Source: a bacterium (lineage in GTDB: Bacteria > Armatimonadota > UBA5829). Taken from it: DNA of 64,000 bases. The translations under genes and the position numbers were made by a program. Location of the stretch: positions 62,001-126,000 of the forward strand of contig JAJFVF010000010.1 in assembly GCA_021371935.1 (NCBI GenBank). The letters run 5' to 3'. Shown here in pieces: positions 6,681 through 61,305 of the stretch (positions are counted from its first letter, which is position 1; each line of letters opens with the position of its first letter). A model generated the notes under the pieces. It ran no database searches and was not told the origin of the DNA. It saw only the letters and a list, made by a program, of their open reading frames with translations.

Positions 6681-6732
6681 AACGAACTGAGCGTGAAATT
6701 CGGATTTCTGAGCGTGGATGAGTTCGTTTTTA
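6681..6732 (+). terminator. Terminator-like hairpin repeat, copy 1
   Basis: AACGAACT (6681..6688) pairs with AGTTCGTT (6721..6728), followed by TTT. The loop holds two direct copies of GAGCGTG. A close copy lies behind uvrA at 48409..48472. It terminates the ABC exporter operon. Confidence 0.65.
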
Positions 6733-6803
6733 CGCATTATTTACAAGGAGTGAGAATAATGCTCTCGGAACCCGGATTATGCGGGAGACGCATAATCCGG
6801 GTT
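6733..6803 (+). repeat. Two-hairpin 3'-end repeat, copy A
   Basis: Read in the direction of the upstream gene: a degenerate hairpin around GCATTATT...AATAATGC (6734..6762), the link CTCTCGG, then a perfect 15-bp stem AACCCGGATTATGCG (6769..6783) with its complement (6789..6803) around a 5-nt loop. The sequence AGCTGTTTTT follows, so it can act as an intrinsic terminator. Other copies are at 16924, 24462 and 59774. The remainder of the gap to 6920 shows nothing else. Confidence 0.8.
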
Positions 6804-8667: not shown

Positions 8668-9765
8668 CTAGTGATGATTCTCCTCTCCGTTCCAAACCAA
8701 CTTTCCTGTTCGATCTATGTAGCATGGCTTTCCGCCAAATTCAGGGTCAACAATCCAAACACGGGCTAAGCTATCTTTAAATTCTTCTGCTTCATAGAAC
8801 TGAGGCTGAATCACTATCTTGCCTGTCTTATCAATGTAGCCGTGTCTTCCGGGAAAAGTCGGCATATTTTGCCCTTGCTTAAATATAGGAGAGGCATCTT
8901 TTTTTGTGATCTCAACTACAGCGAGCCCTTCTGAAAAAGATTCAGCATTATCAAATTTTGCGTCTATAACTATCTTGCCAGCTTTGTCAATATAGCCATC
9001 CTTCCAGTCTTTACTGATAACAGCTAAACCTTCCGAGAAGTCGTCTGCGCTTTCAAATTGTGGTGCAATTACTCTCATTCCAGTTTTGTCGATAAATCCG
9101 TGATTCCGTGTCCCTGATTCTTCAAATTGCGCTAATCCTTCTGAGAATTTATCCGGCTCGGAACCTAGCCCTTCTATAACATACGTGCCAGTTTTATCGA
9201 TATATCCTGCTTTCCATGCCTTGTCGAATTCCATAACACCGGCTAATCCTTCCGAAAATGGACCTGCGCACTCAAATTTGTTGTTAATTGCCTGATGTCC
9301 GTTCTTGTCTATATATATGCTGTAGCCATTCCATGCATTACCTGCTACTACTACGGCCAGCCCATCATAGAAAGAATTGGCGAAATCATAAGTAGCAGGA
9401 ATGACCATTTTTCCAGTTTTATCCAGATATCCCCACTTTCCCATGCGCTGATCCCCAATCTGTACCGCTGCGAGTCCTTCGGAAAATTCAAATATCTGAG
9501 AATATTTAAGTTCGATCACTATGTTACCGGCTTTATCTATGCAGCCGAACTTCCTAGAGTCACCATGACCAGTGCCTACGACAGCCAGCCCTTCATAGAA
9601 ATAATCAGCACAGTTATATTGGGGTTTGATAACAATATGACCGTTCTTGTCTATGTAGCCCCACTTTCCTTTTACATCAACGGGAAAAAGTGGAGGATTA
9701 TCAGACGCTATTGCTGCTGATAGATTAAGAAGAATCACAACTGCTAGGACAATAAAAAGTCTCAT
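8668..9765 (-). CDS. Secreted WG-repeat protein (8 repeats)
   Basis: 365 residues with a signal peptide (MRLFIVLAVVILLNLSAAIA). The mature part is eight full WG (KWG-type) repeats of about 38-45 residues and a partial ninth. Each has the core GYIDKTGKIVI, a variable strand, and FSEGLAVV. The repeats are beta-rich and are thought to form a solenoid or propeller for binding. It starts behind AGGAGGG, 10 nt after the stop of a longer WG paralogue, so the two are an operon and a tandem duplication. No enzymatic domain is seen. The protein is exported to the periplasm or outside; the ligand is unknown. Confidence 0.88.
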   Translation of the reverse strand: MRLFIVLAVVILLNLSAAIASDNPPLFPVDVKGKWGYIDKNGHIVIKPQYNCADYFYEGLAVVGTGHGDSRKFGCIDKAGNIVIELKYSQIFEFSEGLAAVQIGDQRMGKWGYLDKTGKMVIPATYDFANSFYDGLAVVVAGNAWNGYSIYIDKNGHQAINNKFECAGPFSEGLAGVMEFDKAWKAGYIDKTGTYVIEGLGSEPDKFSEGLAQFEESGTRNHGFIDKTGMRVIAPQFESADDFSEGLAVISKDWKDGYIDKAGKIVIDAKFDNAESFSEGLAVVEITKKDASPIFKQGQNMPTFPGRHGYIDKTGKIVIQPQFYEAEEFKDSLARVWIVDPEFGGKPCYIDRTGKLVWNGEENHH

Positions 9766-9775
9766 ATCTACCCTC

Positions 9776-11902
9776 CTATTTTTCCCAGGCTACCCCGGCT
9801 ATGCCGCAGGAGAAATCACCGGCTCCGTCATATTGCGGTTTTATAACCATATGGCCTTTTGAGTTTATATAGCCCCACTTATTTCCTACTCTCACAGCGG
9901 CGAGGCCATCACTGAATTCACGGGCGAAAGCGAATTTAGGTTTTATTACGGTTTTGCCGTTCTTGTCCATATAGCCCCAAATGAACTTGTCACGGAGTTC
10001 TTCTGGCATCATAGGCATAAGGCTATCGCAGAAATAGCCCGAATCGGAGTACGGAAGCTCAAAATTGGGAGGAATCACAATCTTACCGGTTTTGTCGATA
10101 AATGCATTATTATCATTAATAGAGCCAAGATTTACTAAAGCACGACCTCCATAAAACCCTTCGGCTTTGTCGAATTGAGGCTCGATCACCCATTTACCTG
10201 TTTTGTCGATATAACCATACTTGTCATCGATTTCAACAGCGGCCAGCCCTTCTGAAAAAGGGGTTGCATCATCAAACCGAGGCTCTATGACAATTTTGCC
10301 GGATTTATCGATGTAGCCGTAGTTTATATCCTCCATCTCGAAATAATCGCCCGCTTTCAGAGGAGAGTTGGGATCCATAAGTATTCTGTACTGTGCCAAC
10401 TCTTCTGTAACAAGCACATTCTTCTTTGTATCAACTCCGAAAACAGCCAGCCCATCAGAGAAAGAGAAGCCTGGAACCTGAGTGTTTTTGAGTTTAGGAG
10501 GAATGACAAATTCTCCCTTATGGTTTATATAGCCATCTTTTTCGTCGATGCTGACCCAGGCAAGGCCTTCATGAAACTCAGCGGCATTATCGAACTGAGG
10601 CTTGATAACCGTTTTTCCCTTTTTATCTATATAACCCCAAGTGCCTACATAGAAATCACCGTAGCCTACTGGTATAAGCCCCTCCGAGCACTTCCCAACG
10701 ACATCGAACTGTGGCTTTATAACAAGTTTGCCCGTGTTATCGATAAAGCCCCACTTGCCGGTTATTTCATCTCCCATTCGTACAGGCGCAAGTCCTTCGC
10801 AAGCAACACCAACCTGATCATATTTCTGCTTTGTTATAACCTTGCCGTTTTTATTGATGTATCCATACTTCCCTTTGGGCTTGTCAGGCATTATGACAAC
10901 TGCCAGGCCTTCCGAGAAATCGAATACCTGTTTATAAGGAAGCGGACCCAGCACCTCTTTCCCTGTCTTGTCGACAAATAAATTCCTCGATCCGATTTTA
11001 GCCTGGGCAAGGTCTTCATGAAAATCGCCGGTTATCGACAGCTTGCGCATCTGCAAGCAGCTATTCTTCAGCACAATTTTCCCACTCTTGTCGAAATACT
11101 CTCTGCCATCGGGACCATCAATTGATGCAAGGCCCTCTGAGAAGCTGCTGGCGAAACCACCTTCCTTTGGCCCGATAACGATTTTGCCTGTCTTGTCGAT
11201 GTATGCCCATTTCATTTTAAAGGATTCAAAGCTGAGCCGGACTAGCGCTAAACCTTCAGAAAAGGGTTTTGCATCATAGAATTGAGGTTCTATTACCATC
11301 TTGCCCGACTTATCTATAAAACCCCACTTGCCGGTCAAGAGATTACCTGTCATCACAGGGGCAAGACCCTCTGAAAAATCACCTGCATTGATGTATTGAG
11401 GTTCTATAATCATATTGCCGGCTTTATCTATGAACCCCCAGTTCTCAGGAATAGCCTCAAAAGTCACACGAGCCAGCCCATCCGAGAAATCTCCGGCTCT
11501 AAAGAACTGAGGCTTGATAATAAATATTCCTGTCTTATCTATGAAACCCGTGTCGATCTGGTTGGTTGCTACTGCTGCAAGACCCTCTGAAAACTTTTGA
11601 GCGCTATCGAATTTAGTTGGAATTACGACTTTACCGGTCTTATCGATAAAACCTGATTTGGAATTATACAAACCACCGGTCTTGATTACGGCGAGGCCAT
11701 CATGAAACGTTTCGGCCCATCCGTAGTTTGCAGAGATTACGATTTTACCGGTTTTGTCGATATAGCCGCACTTTACATTTGGCTGAACCTCGTAACCCAT
11801 ATCCGATTCAAGATATGGTCCCTGTCTGTAAGGTTCACACTCAGCTCGAATTACTAGAGACAACATGATAATGCAAATTATCAATCTCACTAATTTCTTC
11901 AT
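9776..11902 (-). CDS. Secreted WG-repeat protein (about 17 repeats)
   Basis: 708 residues with a signal peptide (MKKLVRLIICIIMLSLVIRA) and about 17 WG repeats covering the whole mature protein. Most follow GFIDKTGKxVIxPQF...FSEGLAxV; repeats 6, 7, 12 and 15 carry insertions of several residues. It is a longer paralogue of the next gene. Signal, repeat spacing and residue conservation indicate a functional exported repeat protein. It starts behind AAGGATAAG. The DNA of the repeats is diverged, so the array is old rather than recently expanded. Confidence 0.88.
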   Translation of the reverse strand: MKKLVRLIICIIMLSLVIRAECEPYRQGPYLESDMGYEVQPNVKCGYIDKTGKIVISANYGWAETFHDGLAVIKTGGLYNSKSGFIDKTGKVVIPTKFDSAQKFSEGLAAVATNQIDTGFIDKTGIFIIKPQFFRAGDFSDGLARVTFEAIPENWGFIDKAGNMIIEPQYINAGDFSEGLAPVMTGNLLTGKWGFIDKSGKMVIEPQFYDAKPFSEGLALVRLSFESFKMKWAYIDKTGKIVIGPKEGGFASSFSEGLASIDGPDGREYFDKSGKIVLKNSCLQMRKLSITGDFHEDLAQAKIGSRNLFVDKTGKEVLGPLPYKQVFDFSEGLAVVIMPDKPKGKYGYINKNGKVITKQKYDQVGVACEGLAPVRMGDEITGKWGFIDNTGKLVIKPQFDVVGKCSEGLIPVGYGDFYVGTWGYIDKKGKTVIKPQFDNAAEFHEGLAWVSIDEKDGYINHKGEFVIPPKLKNTQVPGFSFSDGLAVFGVDTKKNVLVTEELAQYRILMDPNSPLKAGDYFEMEDINYGYIDKSGKIVIEPRFDDATPFSEGLAAVEIDDKYGYIDKTGKWVIEPQFDKAEGFYGGRALVNLGSINDNNAFIDKTGKIVIPPNFELPYSDSGYFCDSLMPMMPEELRDKFIWGYMDKNGKTVIKPKFAFAREFSDGLAAVRVGNKWGYINSKGHMVIKPQYDGAGDFSCGIAGVAWEK

Positions 11903-16700: not shown

Positions 16701-16923
16701 CTGCGTTTTAAAATTTTTTGTTCCGTAACTATATGTATTAATATTGCTAAGGAGTCAGAATTACCACTATTATCGACGAATAGTATTCTTCGTGGTGAGG
16801 AGATATTTGGCTGTCATCCAGCCAAAACTGTAAAGCGCGTCGGCATCAGTTTAGATATGTTGGCCTCCCATAGGAGATGAGAATGTGATTGCATCAGGCG
16901 TAAATACTCAATACAAAATACCT

Positions 16924-16999
16924 AACCCGGATTATGCGCTTACCGCATAATCCGGGTCTCTGAGAGCATTATTCACGTTCCTCGTGAATAATGCGGGCT
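16924..16999 (-). repeat. Two-hairpin 3'-end repeat, copy B
   Basis: Given here on the strand of the adjoining gene. Hairpin with arms ATTATTCACG/CGTGAATAAT (16968..16977 and 16983..16992), the link, then a perfect 14-bp stem ACCCGGATTATGCG (16925..16938) with its complement (16944..16957). It lies 9 nt beyond the stop of the SpoIIE-type gene and should act as its terminator. Confidence 0.8.
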
Positions 17000-17008
17000 A
17001 ATATAAAA

Positions 17009-18163
17009 TCATATGCGCTCGATTACAACCAGCTTGCCTGAATCTTTGAGTTTTTCGGCTATCAACGGGATGATGGTCTGCCTTGTAAGAATGCCCTTTT
17101 GGCGGAAGCTGATATCTGCTGTGGCAGGATTGACTGCGCTGCCGAGCAGGATGTTGATGCGGTCTGCTTCACGGAGATATTTGTGCAATTGGGTGACGCC
17201 GCTCTCCTCATCGAAGACTCCATAGTCCTCATCGAGCACATTGTATACTTGATTGAGGGTCACGGCTCCCTCGGTCACAAGATCGATTCCGTCTATTATA
17301 TGGCGGGGAGGCGCGAGCATGCTCTGCGGGTTGGGTTCCATGAGCAGCGGTTTGCCCAGAGTCTTTGCCACAAGTTGCGCAGTGGTTCCTCCGCAGACGA
17401 CTTTGATTCCGTCCGTCAGCATGAAGCGCTGGATCACTTCATGGTCCTTTTTCTTGTCTGATGGAGGACCTGTAAGGATATTTACAGTGCGCCCATACCG
17501 GCACGATGCCAGCACGGCTGTGCAGTCGTCACCCAGACCTGCACTCCAAAGCTCCCTCGCACGGTTCAAAACACAGCCGGGAACGCTTCTCAACGACGCG
17601 CCATCACTGAGGCAGTCGCTTATATACTGGCTTGTGCCGTCGACAGTCCAGCCGTTGGCCAGTCCCATACCCAGGCCGGCCTGAGTGATACCGTCCGTGA
17701 CGATCAATATTCCTTCATCGATGGAAAGATGGCAGTTCGCTTCACCGATCAGTGAATGGCCTTCCATAGTGGCGCGCCTGCGCAGAATCTGTGAGTAGCG
17801 CCTGGTGACAAACACTGGAGGCGGCATCTCGTAGGTTAGGATAGTGGTTACGCCATCGTTGAGTATACGCGCGACAGTGAATACCGCATATGGCAGATCG
17901 GTGCCTTTCGCCTGTTCCAGGGTGTTTACCATGCTCGAGAATGCCTTGCGCAGCGATATGCCCTGACGCAGCAGTTCCAGCACTCGTGAGACGCACATCT
18001 GGGCAGCAATATGAGCCTTTATGCCATGCCCCATGCCGTCGCTGACGACCATCGTGAATGAGGATGGTGTCCGCTCATAGGCTGCCATATCGCCACAGAC
18101 GTCGCCCGGACGCTTCGAGATTTGCTGTGTGTCTACTTCGACGTGTATGTATCCTTCAGCCAT
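17009..18163 (-). CDS. SpoIIE/PP2C-type phosphatase next to sensory hydrogenase
   Basis: 384 residues. The first 220 form a PP2C/SpoIIE domain with the metal motifs: GDVCGD, VVSDGMGHG, LIVTDGITQ and GLGDDCTAVL. It has no membrane helices, unlike sporulation SpoIIE, so it is a soluble serine/threonine phosphatase. The last 150 residues (from about TVNILTGPPSDKKKDHEV) are a second domain I do not recognise, with an Rx-rich C-terminus. The gene overlaps the sensory hydrogenase gene by 31 nt. Such pairs are known in anaerobes, where the phosphatase probably passes on the hydrogenase signal. The target is unknown; no anti-sigma antagonist lies nearby. Confidence 0.85.
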   Translation of the reverse strand: MAEGYIHVEVDTQQISKRPGDVCGDMAAYERTPSSFTMVVSDGMGHGIKAHIAAQMCVSRVLELLRQGISLRKAFSSMVNTLEQAKGTDLPYAVFTVARILNDGVTTILTYEMPPPVFVTRRYSQILRRRATMEGHSLIGEANCHLSIDEGILIVTDGITQAGLGMGLANGWTVDGTSQYISDCLSDGASLRSVPGCVLNRARELWSAGLGDDCTAVLASCRYGRTVNILTGPPSDKKKDHEVIQRFMLTDGIKVVCGGTTAQLVAKTLGKPLLMEPNPQSMLAPPRHIIDGIDLVTEGAVTLNQVYNVLDEDYGVFDEESGVTQLHKYLREADRINILLGSAVNPATADISFRQKGILTRQTIIPLIAEKLKDSGKLVVIERI

Positions 18164-24440: not shown

Positions 24441-24461
24441 TTTACTCCTGAACCTAGTTCG

Positions 24462-24531
24462 TATTATGCGCTTCTCGCATAATCCGGGTCTCCGAGAGCA
24501 TTATTCACGTTAATCGTGAATAATGCGGGCT
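24462..24531 (-). repeat. Two-hairpin 3'-end repeat, copy C (holds the rex stop codon)
   Basis: Arms ATTATTCACG (24500..24509) and CGTGAATAAT (24515..24524) form a 10-bp hairpin; the second hairpin is shortened to TTATGCG/CGCATAA (24464..24482). Read on the minus strand, the last codons of rex (ARIIHD) and its TAA stop (24510..24512) are part of the first hairpin, the stop lying in its loop. The element lies between rex and hydC, so it could attenuate read-through. Confidence 0.8.
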
Positions 24532-25187
24532 AGAAATTGCGGGTCAATATCCGGTATTTTTGACGACTTGACCGATAGGACGGCCAGGCCTGATGAAAGG
24601 TCTTCATTCTGCACGACCACACCTTCGGGCACTTCCAGCACTACCGGTGAGAAATTCCAGATTGCTTCGATTCCACCGGAAACCATCACGCCGGCGACAT
24701 GCTGAGCAGCTTCGGCAGGGACGGTAATAATGCCCAGCTTGATGTTCATTCTGCGCGCAAGATCAGGCAGCTTTTCCAGCGGCAAGACATCCCTGTCGTG
24801 AATTTGCGTGCCGATTTTGCACTCGTCGCAGTCAAAAGCAGCAATGATCTTCATTCCGTGCTGCTCAAAGCCTTTGTAGCCCAGCAGGGCGCTGCCGAGG
24901 TTGCCTGCGCCAACGAGAAAGACTTCCTTATGGCTGTCCCAACCAAGAAACTCCTCAATGGCCTTGATAAGTGACGGCACGTGGTAGCCGATTTTGGGTT
25001 TGCCCTCGATCCCGGTGATTGCGAGGTCTTTTCGCACTTGAATCGGTTCCAGCTTCAGGCATTGAGCGATATGATTGCTGGAAACGATGTCGCGGCCATT
25101 TTGGGCGAGTTGCTTAAGCAAATAAAGATAGGAGGGCAGTCTTCTGATCGTAGGCAGACTGCCGACTTTTTGCTTTGTATTTTCCAT
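24510..25187 (-). CDS. rex: Redox-sensing transcriptional repressor Rex
   Basis: 225 residues from ATG 25187, chosen for GGAGG 8 nt upstream. N-terminal winged helix (about residues 5-75, with RRLPSYLYLLKQLAQNGRD and LEPIQVRKDLAITG) and a Rossmann domain with VFLVGAGNLGSAL that binds NADH/NAD+. Rex releases DNA when NADH is high and is known to control hydrogenase and fermentation genes; its place just before hydCBA fits. The C-terminus ends ARIIHD, residues encoded by a dispersed repeat rather than the usual Rex tail. Confidence 0.93.
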   Translation of the reverse strand: MENTKQKVGSLPTIRRLPSYLYLLKQLAQNGRDIVSSNHIAQCLKLEPIQVRKDLAITGIEGKPKIGYHVPSLIKAIEEFLGWDSHKEVFLVGAGNLGSALLGYKGFEQHGMKIIAAFDCDECKIGTQIHDRDVLPLEKLPDLARRMNIKLGIITVPAEAAQHVAGVMVSGGIEAIWNFSPVVLEVPEGVVVQNEDLSSGLAVLSVKSSKIPDIDPQFLARIIHD

Positions 25188-25248
25188 TTGTATGCCTCCA
25201 GCATTTGAGCTTACAATGTGCATTCCTGCTTAATAGATAAACGGTATT

Positions 25249-41963: not shown

Positions 41964-42437
41964 ATGGATATGAAAGACATTGCCCAAGAGTTTCAGTTCA
42001 TGGACCCGGGACATCTTGTCGACGAAGAACTTGAACTCATACTTGTTGAGAGGCTGCCTGGCGATCCTGCGCGCGCCTTTGTTCCTGCCTATGTGTTCGA
42101 TATGCGTGTTGACGGCCAGAAGGTCGGTGGTATCAACCTGCGAATCGGCAATACTGATGGTATTGTCACTTACGGTGGACATATCGGGTATGTCGTTGAG
42201 CCTGAGTCACGCGGGCATCATTATGCTGAGCGGGCCTGTCGACTGGTTTTTCCATTGGCTAAAAATCATGGTCTCACAATCCTCTGGATAACTTGTAATC
42301 CAGATAACATACCTTCTCGTAGGACATGCGAGCGGTTGGGGGCGACTTTGGTCGAGATCGTCGATCTTCCCGAAGATAACAATATGTATCAGCGGGGGGA
42401 ACGTGAAAAGTGCCGATTTAGGATTGATTTAGATTAA
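41964..42437 (+). CDS. GNAT acetyltransferase
   Basis: 157 residues from ATG 41964; ATG 41970 is the alternative. The C-terminal GNAT core shows GGHIGYVVEPESRGHHYAER (acetyl-CoA loop with R-G-H), then ACRLVFPLAKNHGL and CNPDNIPSRRTCERLGATLV. This pattern is typical of RimJ-like small-molecule or tagged-peptide acetyltransferases. No ribosome-binding site is visible, and a -10 box abuts the ATG, so translation may be leaderless. A longer open frame upstream lacks start signals. Confidence 0.82.
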   Translation: MDMKDIAQEFQFMDPGHLVDEELELILVERLPGDPARAFVPAYVFDMRVDGQKVGGINLRIGNTDGIVTYGGHIGYVVEPESRGHHYAERACRLVFPLAKNHGLTILWITCNPDNIPSRRTCERLGATLVEIVDLPEDNNMYQRGEREKCRFRIDLD

Positions 42438-42508
42438 GCAATTCACACTAAGTAAATTGCATCTCCCATATTACGAACACATGTCTTTGATATAATCAAG
42501 ACCGTATA

Positions 42509-43783
42509 TTACTTAATTTCCCCTGGGTTTGCATACTGCTTCATTACGTCAGAGTATGCACTTTGTATCTCTGCAATAGAGGGCTGCCTCAGGGCTGCTT
42601 GATGTGCATAAGACTCCGCCTCGGACTTCCTTCCCAACTTAATCAGCAGTGACAAGCAGTCTCTAAGTCCTTCAATATCTCTGGGGTTGAGCGCAAAAGC
42701 TTTTTTGTATTCGATTACTGCATCTTTCGGCCTGGAGCTTTCGAGGAACCTGGCATAGCTGAAATGAATGCCGGCTTCGCATGGACCGAGCGTCAATGCT
42801 TTTTTATAATGCTGCCAAGCTAAGTCCATCTGATCGTTATAGAATGCTGATTGTGCAAGAAGCATGTGTGCATACGCAGAGAAAGGGCGCAGCTTTACTA
42901 ATTCTTTGGCACAAGAAAGCTGATCATTGAGTGTGGAAACAGTGAAGTAGTGGATTATGTTTAAGAAAGCTTCTTTTGAATTCTCAGTCGATGATTGGAG
43001 AGGCCTATAATTCTTTGGCTCATTGATTTTGCGCGTGATTGCGGCCAATTGGTTTGCGGTGCATGTTCCGATTGCAGTAGTGTAGCCCAACTTTTGACTA
43101 TGTGCGCGTGTATGGAATATACCAACCATGTTGCCCGTGTTTGATGAGATGACCGGCGAACCGGGCCAGACAGACTCGACCTCCTGACTGGTATCACGCA
43201 TCCACAACATAAGCGGTTGGCCATGCTTAACACCCACGGCTGTCACAGTTAATTTGTCTGTACATAGATCAAGCTCACTTTCCATACGAACTTTTTTTGT
43301 ATTATAGAAGGATATTAAGACACGATCTGTGTCCAATATCTCTTGCTCTTTTGCAAGCGAGAAGGCGGGATGCTTGGTCCATGGCAATTTCAGAATGGCA
43401 ACGTCCAATTTAGGATAAATTGCTACAATTCTTGCCTCGCAAATGTCGCCTAAATAGGGGCTGATGACATAGGGATTACTTAACCCTGTAAAGTTGTTGT
43501 AGCGGTGTGACTGCACAATATACTCGCAACTTGCAACTAAATACCTGCCATCTCCAAACACAAATCCGGGACCTATTTTCCATGAATTGCCCCATGAATT
43601 AATAATTATCAGCAGTGCTTCAGGATCAAGCTGCTTCCCGTTTTCAAATGTGATGGCTTCCTGCTGTTTTACCTTAGGATTCTGTATTTGATCTGCATTA
43701 ATGCGTAGGCTGATGGTGCCAACGCTAACCAAAATAAATAGTATGCAAACTAATTTAGATATAACTCTGGGATGAGACTCCAT
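42509..43783 (-). CDS. Trypsin-like pseudoprotease with TPR domain
   Basis: 424 residues from ATG 43783 (GGAGGAACGA upstream). Signal peptide about 30 residues, a trypsin-fold domain (about 45-250) and C-terminal TPRs. It is a paralogue of the next gene, 21 nt apart. At the catalytic His position the sequence is VASCEYIV (His replaced by Glu in the alignment), and at the serine position VWPGSPVIS (Ser replaced by Pro); the Asp in KLDVAILKLPW remains. It should not cleave peptides. The TPR half is about 90% identical to the paralogue, the protease half much less. Confidence 0.82.
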   Translation of the reverse strand: MESHPRVISKLVCILFILVSVGTISLRINADQIQNPKVKQQEAITFENGKQLDPEALLIIINSWGNSWKIGPGFVFGDGRYLVASCEYIVQSHRYNNFTGLSNPYVISPYLGDICEARIVAIYPKLDVAILKLPWTKHPAFSLAKEQEILDTDRVLISFYNTKKVRMESELDLCTDKLTVTAVGVKHGQPLMLWMRDTSQEVESVWPGSPVISSNTGNMVGIFHTRAHSQKLGYTTAIGTCTANQLAAITRKINEPKNYRPLQSSTENSKEAFLNIIHYFTVSTLNDQLSCAKELVKLRPFSAYAHMLLAQSAFYNDQMDLAWQHYKKALTLGPCEAGIHFSYARFLESSRPKDAVIEYKKAFALNPRDIEGLRDCLSLLIKLGRKSEAESYAHQAALRQPSIAEIQSAYSDVMKQYANPGEIK

Positions 43784-43804: not shown

Positions 43805-45361
43805 TCATTCACTGATCCGTTTTCGCAGCTTGTCTATCTTTTCGGCTGAAATAATACTCGACTTGTTGAGCGCGGACGCCTTGTCCAGCGCATCCAGCGC
43901 CAATTGGTAGTCTTGCTTCTTATAATTGCAGATGAACTCCGCATATGCATACCAAATCCTCGGATCATCTGGTGCCAGTTTCAGTAATGCCGCGTATTGT
44001 GTTTGTGCATCGTCCAATCGACCCAACTGCGCAAGCAAATCAGCCAGAGTCAACCTGTATGCCGGATTCATGGGAACAAGCTTAACTGCTTTCTCTGAGA
44101 GTGTGGCCGCTTCTTCGGGTTTTTTAAGCTGTTCCATTACATTAGAATAGACACTCCATATCTCAGCAATCGAGGGCTGTCTCTGGGCAGCTTGATGCGC
44201 AATAAACTCTGCTTCGGACTTCCTCCCCAACTTAATTAGCAGCGATAAGCAGTCTCTAAGTCCTTCTATATCTCTGGGGTCAAGTGCAAGAGCTTTTTTG
44301 TATTCGATTGCAGCATCTTTCGGCCTGGAGCTTTCGAGGAACCTGGCATAGCTGAAATGAATGCCGGCTTCGCAAGGACCGAGCGTCAGTGCTTTTTTGT
44401 AATGCTGCCAGGCCAGGTCTATCTGATCGTTATAGAATGCTGATTGTGCAAGAAGCATGTGCGCATACGCAGAGGAAGGGCGCAGTTTTATAAATTCTTT
44501 TGCATATTTAATTTGGTCATCGAGTGTAGATGCAGCAAAATAAAGAATTATGTTCGAGAAAGCCTCTTTTGAATTCTCTGTCGATGCTTGGAGGTGCTTA
44601 CCACTCTTTGGCTCATTGATTTTGCTTGCAATTTCAGCCAATTGATTTGCAGTACATCTTGCAGTTGCAGGTCTACCCATACCTATGTCATCGACTATTC
44701 CACTGAGCACACCAATCACATTGCCTGTCTTTGATGAGATAACCGGAGAACCACTCCAGCCCTGCTCAATTCGTTGGCTGTCATCTTCCATCAACAGCAT
44801 GCGAGGTTTATTGTGTTTTATGCCTGCGGCCGTTACAAGAAGCCAATCAGTACATAAATCAATTTTCCCCTCCGTAAAGACTCTTTTTATGTTATAGGAA
44901 GATATTGATACATTATCCGTGTTCAATACTTCCTGCTCATTTGCAAGCGTTAGAGCGGGATGCTTATTCCATGGTAATTCAAGAATAGCAACGTCCAACT
45001 CAGGATCTGCAGCAATAATCCTGGCCTTACTTATGTCTCCCCAATAGCGGCTGATAACGTAGGGGCTCTTTAATCCAATAAAGCTGCCGAACTCATTACA
45101 GCAATCGACATTGTGATAGTTGGTGGCTATATATCTTCCATCTCCAGATACAAATCCGCATCCCGCGTTTATTTCGTCTGCCCAGATATCAATTGTTACC
45201 ACCAGCGCTTTGGTGTCAACTATCTTTCCTTTATTACCTGACAGACCTATAGTGTCAGCAATTTTATGGCTTTCTGTTTGAATGGCAGTACACGGCAGAC
45301 AATTACTGAGTAAAACGACAAAAATGGGAATGCAATGGTATCTAATCACAGTTAACTCCAT
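43805..45361 (-). CDS. Trypsin-like serine protease with TPR domain
   Basis: 518 residues. Signal peptide about 25 residues, then an S1-type domain with the triad: His in YIATNYHNVD, Asp in ELDVAILELPW, and Ser in GWSGSPVISSKTGNVIG. From about residue 285 there are several TPR motifs (SAYAHMLLAQSAFYNDQIDL, AGIHFSYARFLESSRPKDAA). It is a periplasmic or surface protease related to DegP-like S1C but with no PDZ domain. The extra C-terminal 90 residues (TPR) are missing in the paralogue. A TTGACA/TAGAAT promoter lies upstream. Confidence 0.85.
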   Translation of the reverse strand: MELTVIRYHCIPIFVVLLSNCLPCTAIQTESHKIADTIGLSGNKGKIVDTKALVVTIDIWADEINAGCGFVSGDGRYIATNYHNVDCCNEFGSFIGLKSPYVISRYWGDISKARIIAADPELDVAILELPWNKHPALTLANEQEVLNTDNVSISSYNIKRVFTEGKIDLCTDWLLVTAAGIKHNKPRMLLMEDDSQRIEQGWSGSPVISSKTGNVIGVLSGIVDDIGMGRPATARCTANQLAEIASKINEPKSGKHLQASTENSKEAFSNIILYFAASTLDDQIKYAKEFIKLRPSSAYAHMLLAQSAFYNDQIDLAWQHYKKALTLGPCEAGIHFSYARFLESSRPKDAAIEYKKALALDPRDIEGLRDCLSLLIKLGRKSEAEFIAHQAAQRQPSIAEIWSVYSNVMEQLKKPEEAATLSEKAVKLVPMNPAYRLTLADLLAQLGRLDDAQTQYAALLKLAPDDPRIWYAYAEFICNYKKQDYQLALDALDKASALNKSSIISAEKIDKLRKRISE

Positions 45362-58536: not shown

Positions 58537-58675
58537 AACACTACCCCCAAATTGGATGTTAGAAGATTAGAAATAAGATGCTAAGTAAACTACGCCCATA
58601 AACTTGTATTAGGGATTGCACTTTAACACATACGGATTTTATGCTGAGAAGTGCGATTTATATAGCGTAAATTGC

Positions 58676-59746
58676 TTATAGGTTTGAACTCCTGCAGGCT
58701 GTATCTATTTTGAGAGGTAAACTTAGTGGTTTGCCCGTCCGGCTGGACGCGTATGCTCCAAGCACGATCTCGACAGCCCTGCGTCCTTCGACCCCGTCGA
58801 TAGCCGGTTTCCTGTCTTCATCGATTGCGTTGATAAAGTCTTTGAACTGAGCTATATGTCCCGCAGCCGAAAAGGCCATGGGGTTATATGACCCACTGCC
58901 GATTGAACTGTTTTTGGACAGGGCGGGGCAGGGCGCTTCATCTTTCGTCTTCCAGTATACTATATCACTGTCTTCAATGACAGCCGTTCCGGCATCACCC
59001 AAAACTTCCAGGCGTACATGCAGACCCGGATATGCGCATGTTGTTGATTGGAGAGTGCCCAGCGTACCATTTTCAAATTCCAGCGAGGCCACAAGCGTGT
59101 CTTCCACTTCGATATCGTGGTGGAGCGTCCGCGCATTTGCGCAAATGCTTTTGACCGGCCCGCCGATCCATCTTATCAGGTCGACCGCATGAATGCCCTG
59201 GTTCATCAGTGCGCCGCCGCCGTCCATGCTCCAAGTCCCTCGCCAATCACTGGATGAGTAATATTCGGGCTTTCTATAATAGTGCACATGACCGTTGAGC
59301 AGGATCAGTCTTCCGAACAGACCATTATCGACTGCAGACTTTATGGCGGCAATGGCAGGGTCATAGCGTCTTTGTGAGACAACACCCAGCTTCACACCCA
59401 TTTGGTCTGCAGTATTTATAACTTTATCCGCATCTTCGATGGAGATGGCAAGCGGCTTTTCGACTATAACATGCTTGCCCGACTCGAGCAGCGTTATTGC
59501 CTGTTTGGCGTGCAGACCCGATGGAGTGCAGAGTGTTACAACATCAATATCCGGGTCGGATGCAATCTCGTCTATGTTCTGATAAGCCTTTGCGTTATAT
59601 TCCTGGGCGAAGGACTCGGCGGCGTCGAACGGAATTGCCGTAACCCCGATCAATTTGCAGCGTTCGATTGCGCCGATTGCCTCAGCATGCAGCTTTGCGA
59701 CATTACCTGCTCCGATTATTCCGAAATTATATACGGCTTTTTGCAT
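58676..59746 (-). CDS. Gfo/Idh/MocA oxidoreductase (III)
   Basis: 356 residues, ATG behind GGAGG. Motifs FGIIGAGNVAKLHAEAI, TLCTPSGLHAKQAI, HVIVEKPLAISIEDADKVI and GGGALMNQGIHAVDLIRWIG are complete. Closest in the window to the enzyme at 55544. It is separated from the upstream DegT gene by repeat copy D, and from the next gene by 139 nt that could hold a promoter. Confidence 0.93.
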   Translation of the reverse strand: MQKAVYNFGIIGAGNVAKLHAEAIGAIERCKLIGVTAIPFDAAESFAQEYNAKAYQNIDEIASDPDIDVVTLCTPSGLHAKQAITLLESGKHVIVEKPLAISIEDADKVINTADQMGVKLGVVSQRRYDPAIAAIKSAVDNGLFGRLILLNGHVHYYRKPEYYSSSDWRGTWSMDGGGALMNQGIHAVDLIRWIGGPVKSICANARTLHHDIEVEDTLVASLEFENGTLGTLQSTTCAYPGLHVRLEVLGDAGTAVIEDSDIVYWKTKDEAPCPALSKNSSIGSGSYNPMAFSAAGHIAQFKDFINAIDEDRKPAIDGVEGRRAVEIVLGAYASSRTGKPLSLPLKIDTACRSSNL

Positions 59747-59773
59747 CTTTCCTCCGTTTATGTCGAGTGCCTA

Positions 59774-59850
59774 ACTCTGATTATGCGCTTTCTTCATCAT
59801 CAGGGTCTCCGAGAGCATTATTCAAATTCCTCGTGAATAATGCGGACTAA
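59774..59850 (-). repeat. Two-hairpin 3'-end repeat, copy D (holds a DegT stop codon)
   Basis: The gene-proximal hairpin ATTATTCA...TGAATAAT (59817..59841) is intact; the second is decayed (TGATTATG.../CATCATCA). On the minus strand the last codons of the DegT gene (SPHYSRGI) and its TGA stop (59824..59822) lie inside, in a frame different from that used at rex. Confidence 0.75.
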
Positions 59851-61162
59851 AGAAGTGCCAGTTACCCAATTGCTCGGGGTCACCGCAATCATCAGCAAGC
59901 AATGTCTTATAGTTAGACAATGTCTTTCTGAAAGCCTCCACATATTCGTCAATAATTTCAGGCTTATAATGTTTGAACCATGGCACGGCAAATGTCCGTT
60001 TGCCGATACCTTCGCTTATCTGCAGACTTCCAGCACCTTGTCTGATGTCCCTGATGGTGTATGCGATGCGGGTAGGTTTGCCATGGCCGTATACATCGCA
60101 AGTATTGAAAAGCGGATGCAGATGCAGCGGCAGATTGCAGCCCGGGCTGCACATTTCGCAGCCTTCTTCCTGCAATGCCATACAAAACCGCGTAATGGAG
60201 AGTCCGTCCAGTTCTTCGGGCATATACAGCCCATGTGGGAAATACCAGCCGCCCATTGTGGAATTCGATCCTGGGTCGGTGCGATGCGCTCTTATGCCAG
60301 GCAGGCCATCGAGCTGGTCCCAGAAGTAGTTCATGGCTTTTTGTATCTCGGCTATGCGCTGGTCATAATACTTGAGCTGCACACGTCCGACTGCCGAACT
60401 CATCTGATGCATACGAAACTTATAACCTCCCAGCGGAAGCCCGGCAAACGGCTTCAGATATGGTGTCTGTATCTGCGAATTGAATTTTTCATAGTGGCCG
60501 AATGCGACAGCCCTCTCGTAGATTTCCAGGTCATCGGTCACCAACATCCCTGCTTCGCCAACTGCAAATGCTTTTGCGCTCATCAGAGACATTGCGCCGA
60601 CATCACCAATAGTGCCCAGCTTTTTACCTTTATATAAGCCACCCTGAGCATGCGAGACATCTTCGATAACTTTCAAATCATATTTGTGTGCAATTTCCAT
60701 TATCGGGTCCATATCGCATGGGTATCCGACATAGTGGACGACCACGATTGCTTTGGTGCAATCCGAAATTCTGTTTTCTATATCCGCCGGGTCGATGCAG
60801 AGTGTATGCGGATCGATATCAGCGAATACAGGGGTTGCGCCGAGATTGAAGCATGGCAGGCATGAGGCCCAATATGTGATCGACGGGCAAATTACTTCAT
60901 CACCTGCGCTGATACCGCAGCCGAACATCGCAGACAAAATCGCAGAAGTTCCGTTGTTAGTGCCCAGGGCATATTTAGTTTTTTGCCACGCCGCAAACTC
61001 GCATTCAAATTGAGCCGTGATATCCGTGCCGGACATAGCCGCATGTCTGAGTACATCAAGCACGGCCTCCTCATCTTCACTGCTGATTATGGGCCAGCGA
61101 AACATATCCTCATGGTTTGATGTGATGACCTTGTTGTCAGTTAGCGCTGTTGGTTTGGACAA
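59822..61162 (-). CDS. DegT/DnrJ/EryC1 aminotransferase (II)
   Basis: 446 residues from TTG 61162, chosen because GGAGG lies 6 nt before it; TTG 61183 has no ribosome site. Motifs ALGTNNGTSAILSAMFGCGI, VVVHYVGYPCDMDPI, VIEDVSHAQGG and AMSLMSAKAFAVGEAGMLVT with the PLP-lysine in SAKA. Longer than the other DegT by about 30 residues. The C-terminus SPHYSRGI is supplied by the dispersed repeat copy D. First structural gene of the cluster. Confidence 0.9.
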   Translation of the reverse strand: MSKPTALTDNKVITSNHEDMFRWPIISSEDEEAVLDVLRHAAMSGTDITAQFECEFAAWQKTKYALGTNNGTSAILSAMFGCGISAGDEVICPSITYWASCLPCFNLGATPVFADIDPHTLCIDPADIENRISDCTKAIVVVHYVGYPCDMDPIMEIAHKYDLKVIEDVSHAQGGLYKGKKLGTIGDVGAMSLMSAKAFAVGEAGMLVTDDLEIYERAVAFGHYEKFNSQIQTPYLKPFAGLPLGGYKFRMHQMSSAVGRVQLKYYDQRIAEIQKAMNYFWDQLDGLPGIRAHRTDPGSNSTMGGWYFPHGLYMPEELDGLSITRFCMALQEEGCEMCSPGCNLPLHLHPLFNTCDVYGHGKPTRIAYTIRDIRQGAGSLQISEGIGKRTFAVPWFKHYKPEIIDEYVEAFRKTLSNYKTLLADDCGDPEQLGNWHFFSPHYSRGI

Positions 61163-61305
61163 ATCATGCCTCCATATTCTCAAGAACCTGAATTCAGTAT
61201 GCCAAAGGCAATTAGTTGAGCGCTACCGAAAACCGGCCAAAATGTGTCGAAAAGAGGTCATCAAATAGCATATTACATGCTGCTGCTGTAATGTGTCGTG
61301 GAGTA

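Follow-up and report, generated by a model that had tools for sequence, protein, structure and literature searches.

The dispersed repeat found at the 3' end of rex is very probably a non-autonomous mini-transposon (MITE) that inserts at YTAR, and three genes, encoding a DegT-type aminotransferase, a DEAD-box helicase and Rex, are predicted to take their C-terminus and stop codon from it. The element is short and non-coding and exists as many dispersed copies of one sequence; its identification as a MITE follows from target-site duplications together with empty sites in a genome of the same genus. Throughout, 'the window' denotes the whole 64,000-nucleotide stretch of DNA that was analysed.

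Copies and structure of the element

A search of the 3.54-Mb genome (22 contigs) with the 24-base core of the element, allowing up to 3 mismatches, returned 104 matches, and a reversed control pattern returned none, so that the four window copies from which the repeat was first described are real members of a family of more than a hundred. Three further, weaker copies were found in 400 kb sampled, partly between the listed ones, and the true number is therefore somewhat above 104. In the window they are copy A (6731-6801, minus strand), which is old and degenerate; copy B (16926-16997, plus strand), which is near consensus, lies 7 nt past the stop of the gene at 17009-18163 (minus strand) and is flanked by CTAA duplications at 16922-16925 and 16998-17001; copy C (24458-24529, plus strand) at the 3' end of rex; and copy D (59775-59846, plus strand), 4 codons before the original stop of the DegT gene.

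Aligned copies are 72 bp long and consist of two perfect hairpins with a 9-nt spacer, TCTCYGAGA, between them. Hairpin 1 is made of CCCGGATTATGCG, a 5-nt loop and the complement, and hairpin 2 of GCATTATTCACG, a 5-nt loop and the complement, followed by GGG (in copy C, 24458-24488 and 24498-24526). Both ends of the element have the form CCCGSATTAT; its left end, CCCGGATTAT, and reversed right end, CCCGCATTAT, are terminal inverted repeats with 9 of 10 bases alike. Mean identity to the consensus is 0.896 across 90 full-length copies. Stem pairs covary, pair 5-27 being G-C in 57 cases and T-A in 18, with the same GC/TA alternation at pair 4-28, and the loops are found in both complementary forms (e.g. 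TTCCT and AGGAA); such joint variation can mean that the shape is required or that one arm is corrected against the other. The fold is strong (z -5.4), as it would be for any such palindrome. Nearly all copies contain stops in all six frames, 0, 8 or about 10-21 codons in, so that insertion at a gene end adds a short tail in any frame and on either strand. Neither an Rfam scan nor a tRNA scan of the 64-kb window gave a match, and the element matched nothing in phage, plasmid and viral sequence collections.

Several other repeats share the genome. Single-hairpin palindromes of ~30 bp with YTA-like flanks lie at C12:60868 (L010), C13:176970 (L041), C10:41695, C11:42530 and C2:66271; they are either minimal mobile units or remnants, and a search for this type found few beyond the known copies. 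A second hairpin-bearing repeat, CTAAGTAAATTACGGCC...GCGTAAATTGCTTAG (~80-98 bp), is present in the window at 42435-42515 and at 58581-58678, where the stop codon of a GFO/IDH/MocA gene (58676-58678) falls within its end, and also at L083, L010, L045, L013 and L261. At L022, L027 and L088 the 72 bp element occupies an identical site inside this second repeat, and the two, one nested in the other, seem to have spread together as a composite. The window further contains two adjoining genes of many ~30-38-codon repeats with low DNA identity (8668-11902), a direct repeat of 300 bp whose two copies, in adjacent genes, are 86% identical (42518-42817 and 44111-44410), and dispersed 40-63 bp repeats around ATTGACAGGCT..GAGAT (25592, 27580, 28529 and 29721). 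Motifs like the latter stand at contig ends beside sequence that we presume to be IS110-like.

Target-site duplications and empty sites

Identical 4-mers flank 52 of 101 copies, against 16.6 expected with shuffled partners (maximum 28 in 2000 shuffles). YTAR accounts for 44 of these 52 exact duplications, most commonly as CTAA, CTAG or TTAG, and the remaining eight pairs are TAAA, CCAG, CTGG, TACA, CTAT, ATAG, TGTA and TATA. Exact pairs that vary in this way could not come from a fixed element end, so the 4-mers are target-site duplications and lie outside the element. The fifth base outward is identical in 32 of 101 copies, near chance, which sets the length of the duplication at 4 bp. We put the roughly half of copies without an exact duplication down to mutation.

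A genome of the same genus, G004, whose Rex and DegT proteins are 90% and 84% identical to those in the window, preserves empty sites. At the DegT gene, at a GNAT acetyltransferase gene (target CTGG) that is broken here by an internal insertion, and at C22:132404, G004 has the 4-mer once and aligns with no further base left over. None of the 11 orthologous places at which both flanks were found is filled in G004, while copy A is present there too, with a worn right end; most of the sampled copies thus postdate the split of the two genomes, and at least one predates it. G022, a member of another family of the class, has an abundance of a related element that is 80-86% identical and has a different spacer; this element is absent from most other genomes of the class that were examined. 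The mobility suspected in the preliminary description is thereby borne out.

The element inserts at YTAR and duplicates those 4 bp, as expected if it is moved in trans by a DDE transposase. YTAR, its own reverse complement, contains TAA or TAG on both strands, so that insertion at the last codons of a gene either duplicates the stop or lets the frame enter the element, to end in about 8-22 codons in nearly every copy and frame. Insertions at gene ends may accordingly be near-neutral and survive, those inside genes being mostly lost.

Predicted C-termini encoded by the element

Copy D sits in the 3' end of a DegT/DnrJ/EryC1/StrS-type aminotransferase gene (59822-61183, minus strand) and is bordered by CTAA (TTAG in gene sense) at 59771-59774 and 59847-59850. 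The protein ends WHFFRHSA in G004 and would end WHFFRHST if the window flanks were joined, but at the filled site it ends WHFFSPHYSRGI, insertion having changed RHST to SPHYSRGI. This tail and its stop are read from the element at 59822-59848 (minus strand) as AGT CCG CAT TAT TCA CGA GGA ATT TGA, confirming that, as first described, the DegT tail comes from the same stem as the Rex tail in another frame. WHFF[RKQ]H[ST] is likewise found at, or close to, the end of five other DegT relatives. At a DEAD-box helicase gene (C13:324537) the corresponding termini are VHARH in G004, VRTRH for the joined flanks and VRTSPHYSRET at the filled site, RH having been changed to SPHYSRET. DegT and the helicase read the element in the same frame, giving two unrelated proteins near-identical tails. 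The proposal that the element has been adopted as a coding tail is, on the predicted proteins, clean for these two genes, whose relatives end differently; at rex it also needs a 2-nt difference in frame.

rex (24510-25223, minus strand; Put_DNA-bind_N and CoA_binding domains) is the first gene of an [FeFe]-hydrogenase gene cluster. The nearest named relative of its product is the Rex of Armatimonadetes bacterium UBA5829, which makes an armatimonadote the most likely host. Its stop, TAA at 24510-24512, lies in a hairpin loop and its tail is read from the stem, as had been claimed; the loop is that of hairpin 2, and the tail, LARIIHD, includes the flanking CTAG, the 3' end being CTA GCC CGC ATT ATT CAC GAT TAA (24510-24533, minus strand). 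CTAG duplications border copy C at 24454-24457 and 24530-24533, and the latter aligns within 1 bp with the stop, TTAA, of rex in G004, where the orthologous place is empty. The comparison with this relative lacking the element bears on the origin of the tail: Rex of G004 ends PDIELPNC, not ARIIHD. The window rex differs from that of G004 by 2 bases just before the target, and its frame consequently runs through the old TAG to the TAA in the hairpin-2 loop, where it stops. If the element were absent, the frame as it now stands would run on to LGSGVK, stopping where the next gene begins. We infer that the element landed on the old stop and that a separate indel opened the frame into it, in either order. 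Copy C now separates rex from the rest of the cluster (2Fe-2S thioredoxin-like, NuoF-like and hydrogenase genes), with the downstream GGAG ribosome site left intact, and an effect on expression is possible.

A further candidate for an element-coded stop, proB (C6:190770), was rejected: the copy there has lost part of its left end, and the stop falls outside the recognisable element. Where gene starts were called inside copies (C5:75573 and C2:432942), the calls probably extend the genes too far upstream.

Copies at stop codons and gene ends

By the calls of a simple codon-usage caller, checked on the window only, 18 copies adjoin a called gene that stops on the TAR of the flanking YTAR, and several of these genes have Pfam domains (GidB, FlgK, peptidase M48, PIG-L). 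Twice the insertion fell in a CTAG in which two convergent genes both ended, and its duplication left each of them with a separate stop (a phosphoribosyltransferase-type gene and a glycosyl hydrolase 2 gene at L016; one gene and a DUF2795 gene at L096). The 2232 eligible YTAR sites in 464 kb comprise 87 at stops, 626 in other intergenic positions and 1519 in coding sequence, yet the last hold only ~3 of 101 copies. Counting all copies, 18 at stops and 76 in other intergenic positions compare with 87 and 626 sites (p = 0.07). Restricting the count to YTAR-flanked copies gives 18 of 78 at stops against 87 of 713 sites (odds ratio 2.2, p = 0.013), a test that tilts slightly to stops because stop-site copies have YTAR by definition. 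Within 10 nt downstream of stops lie 13 of 76 copies against 44 of 626 sites (~5 expected, p 0.006).

On a plain reading, enrichment at stops is about two-fold and borderline, and is largely accounted for by a preference for YTAR together with selection against insertions in coding sequence. The association with gene ends pointed out in the preliminary description is mostly a by-product of target and selection. That the element actively seeks out stop codons or the ends of genes as safe sites, over and above its preference for YTAR, seems improbable to us: the odds ratio among YTAR-flanked copies and the excess just past stops speak for it, but the p value with all copies is 0.07 and selection on surviving copies gives the same pattern. 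Slightly more credence, though still little, can be given to the idea that YTAR sites at stop codons are recognised by the element, or favour it, beyond chance, so that duplicating the site duplicates the stop.

Candidate transposases and alternative readings of the element

Searches with PF01609, PF13586 and PF13701 found no autonomous element with matching ends in the 22-contig assembly, which may lack such an element. PF13586 and PF13701 had no match in the genome, and the lone PF01609 (DDE_Tnp_1) gene was set aside as a partner, since it belongs to what we take to be an ISAs1-like family and its ends are unrelated. IS5 ends differ from the CCCG.. of the 72 bp element, and the assembly contains no IS5-type transposase; the ISAs1, IS1380 and Y1 types did not yield a fitting partner either. 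Contig ends (17 right-hand, 3 left-hand), checked for a partner that breaks the assembly, carried other repeats only.

The genome does contain three Y1_Tnp (RAYT-like) genes, with open frames of 160-182 aa. These genes, and the position of the two hairpins flush with the tetranucleotide at the insertion site, would suit an element of REP/BIME type that a Y1 tyrosine (RAYT) transposase mobilises, YTAR then being a conserved foot motif and not a duplication. We consider this very unlikely, because the 4-mers on both sides vary jointly, non-YTAR pairs included, and the empty sites have one copy; moreover, none of the three Y1 genes has the 72 bp element nearby, and one of them, a short gene at L301 (C19:139741), is bordered by inverted hairpins of its own, GGTGGCGATCTCCGAATCGCCACC, that differ from the 72 bp element.

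The repeat had also been described as terminator-like and as always in one orientation relative to the gene it follows. The constant orientation holds in the window only: genome-wide, genes ending at or in a copy number 11 in the same and 14 in the opposite orientation, and those ending within 30 nt of a copy 12 and 6. In 8.6 kb around copies B and C there are 4 terminator-like sites versus 7.7 in shuffles, with one U-rich tail, a weak one at copy B, and a terminator function does not appear supported. That the repeat serves as a transcription terminator or as an RNA element of the 3'-UTR, its dispersed copies being retained at gene ends in a single orientation because they function there, is very unlikely: this would agree with the strong fold, the excess within 10 nt of 3' ends and the covariation of the arms, but that covariation may also come from template switching between them, there is no general U-tract, orientation is mixed, many copies lie between divergent genes and several no more than 12 nt upstream of start codons, and the element is patchy across the class, with the orthologous G004 places unfilled.

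Comparison with known systems

C-termini and stops supplied by MITEs are already documented, for EnhC and for ECA3499. QMITE2 of Coxiella burnetii, like the 72 bp element, is a MITE with a strong hairpin and is found mainly on the 3' side of genes. The final 33 aa of EnhC are encoded by it in one strain, and whether or not a stop comes ahead of QMITE2 depends on an indel, much as at rex; but it is 150-190 bp long, has 7-11 nt variable direct repeats, contains a GTAG REP and is unrelated in sequence (PMC5896051). The enterobacterial RU-1 (ERIC) similarly removes the normal stop at the 3' end of ECA3499 and gives a new C-terminus and stop; it differs in being 127 bp long, in having an open frame and in its unrelated sequence, and it is not known to make a 4-bp YTAR duplication (PMC2759123). 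Among other MITE-like elements, RUP of pneumococcus shares stops in all six frames but is 107 bp long, and Rickettsia palindromic elements (RPE) are likewise read into proteins but are located within genes, where they preserve an open frame (PMC2229807). A 4-bp YTAR duplication is a mark of IS5, whose target and duplication length are those of the 72 bp element (PMC10359306). REP/BIME elements resemble it in their paired hairpins beside a tetranucleotide and their position mostly 3' of genes, but their tetranucleotide is a fixed tag, whereas here it is a varying target duplication (PMC3733652). A search of limited open-access literature found no prior description of the 72 bp family, which is new as a family but of a known kind; its before-and-after record is unusually clear.

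Implications

For the DegT protein and the helicase, G004 represents the state before insertion, making these genes a clean example of how new C-termini arise, and annotators should not take shared ends such as SPHYSRGI and SPHYSRET for conserved motifs. With a palindromic target that holds a stop on both strands, an element can land safely at gene ends, and the same may go for other elements with YTAR targets. A preference for stop sites, if true, would be a built-in way for a transposon to adjoin genes harmlessly.
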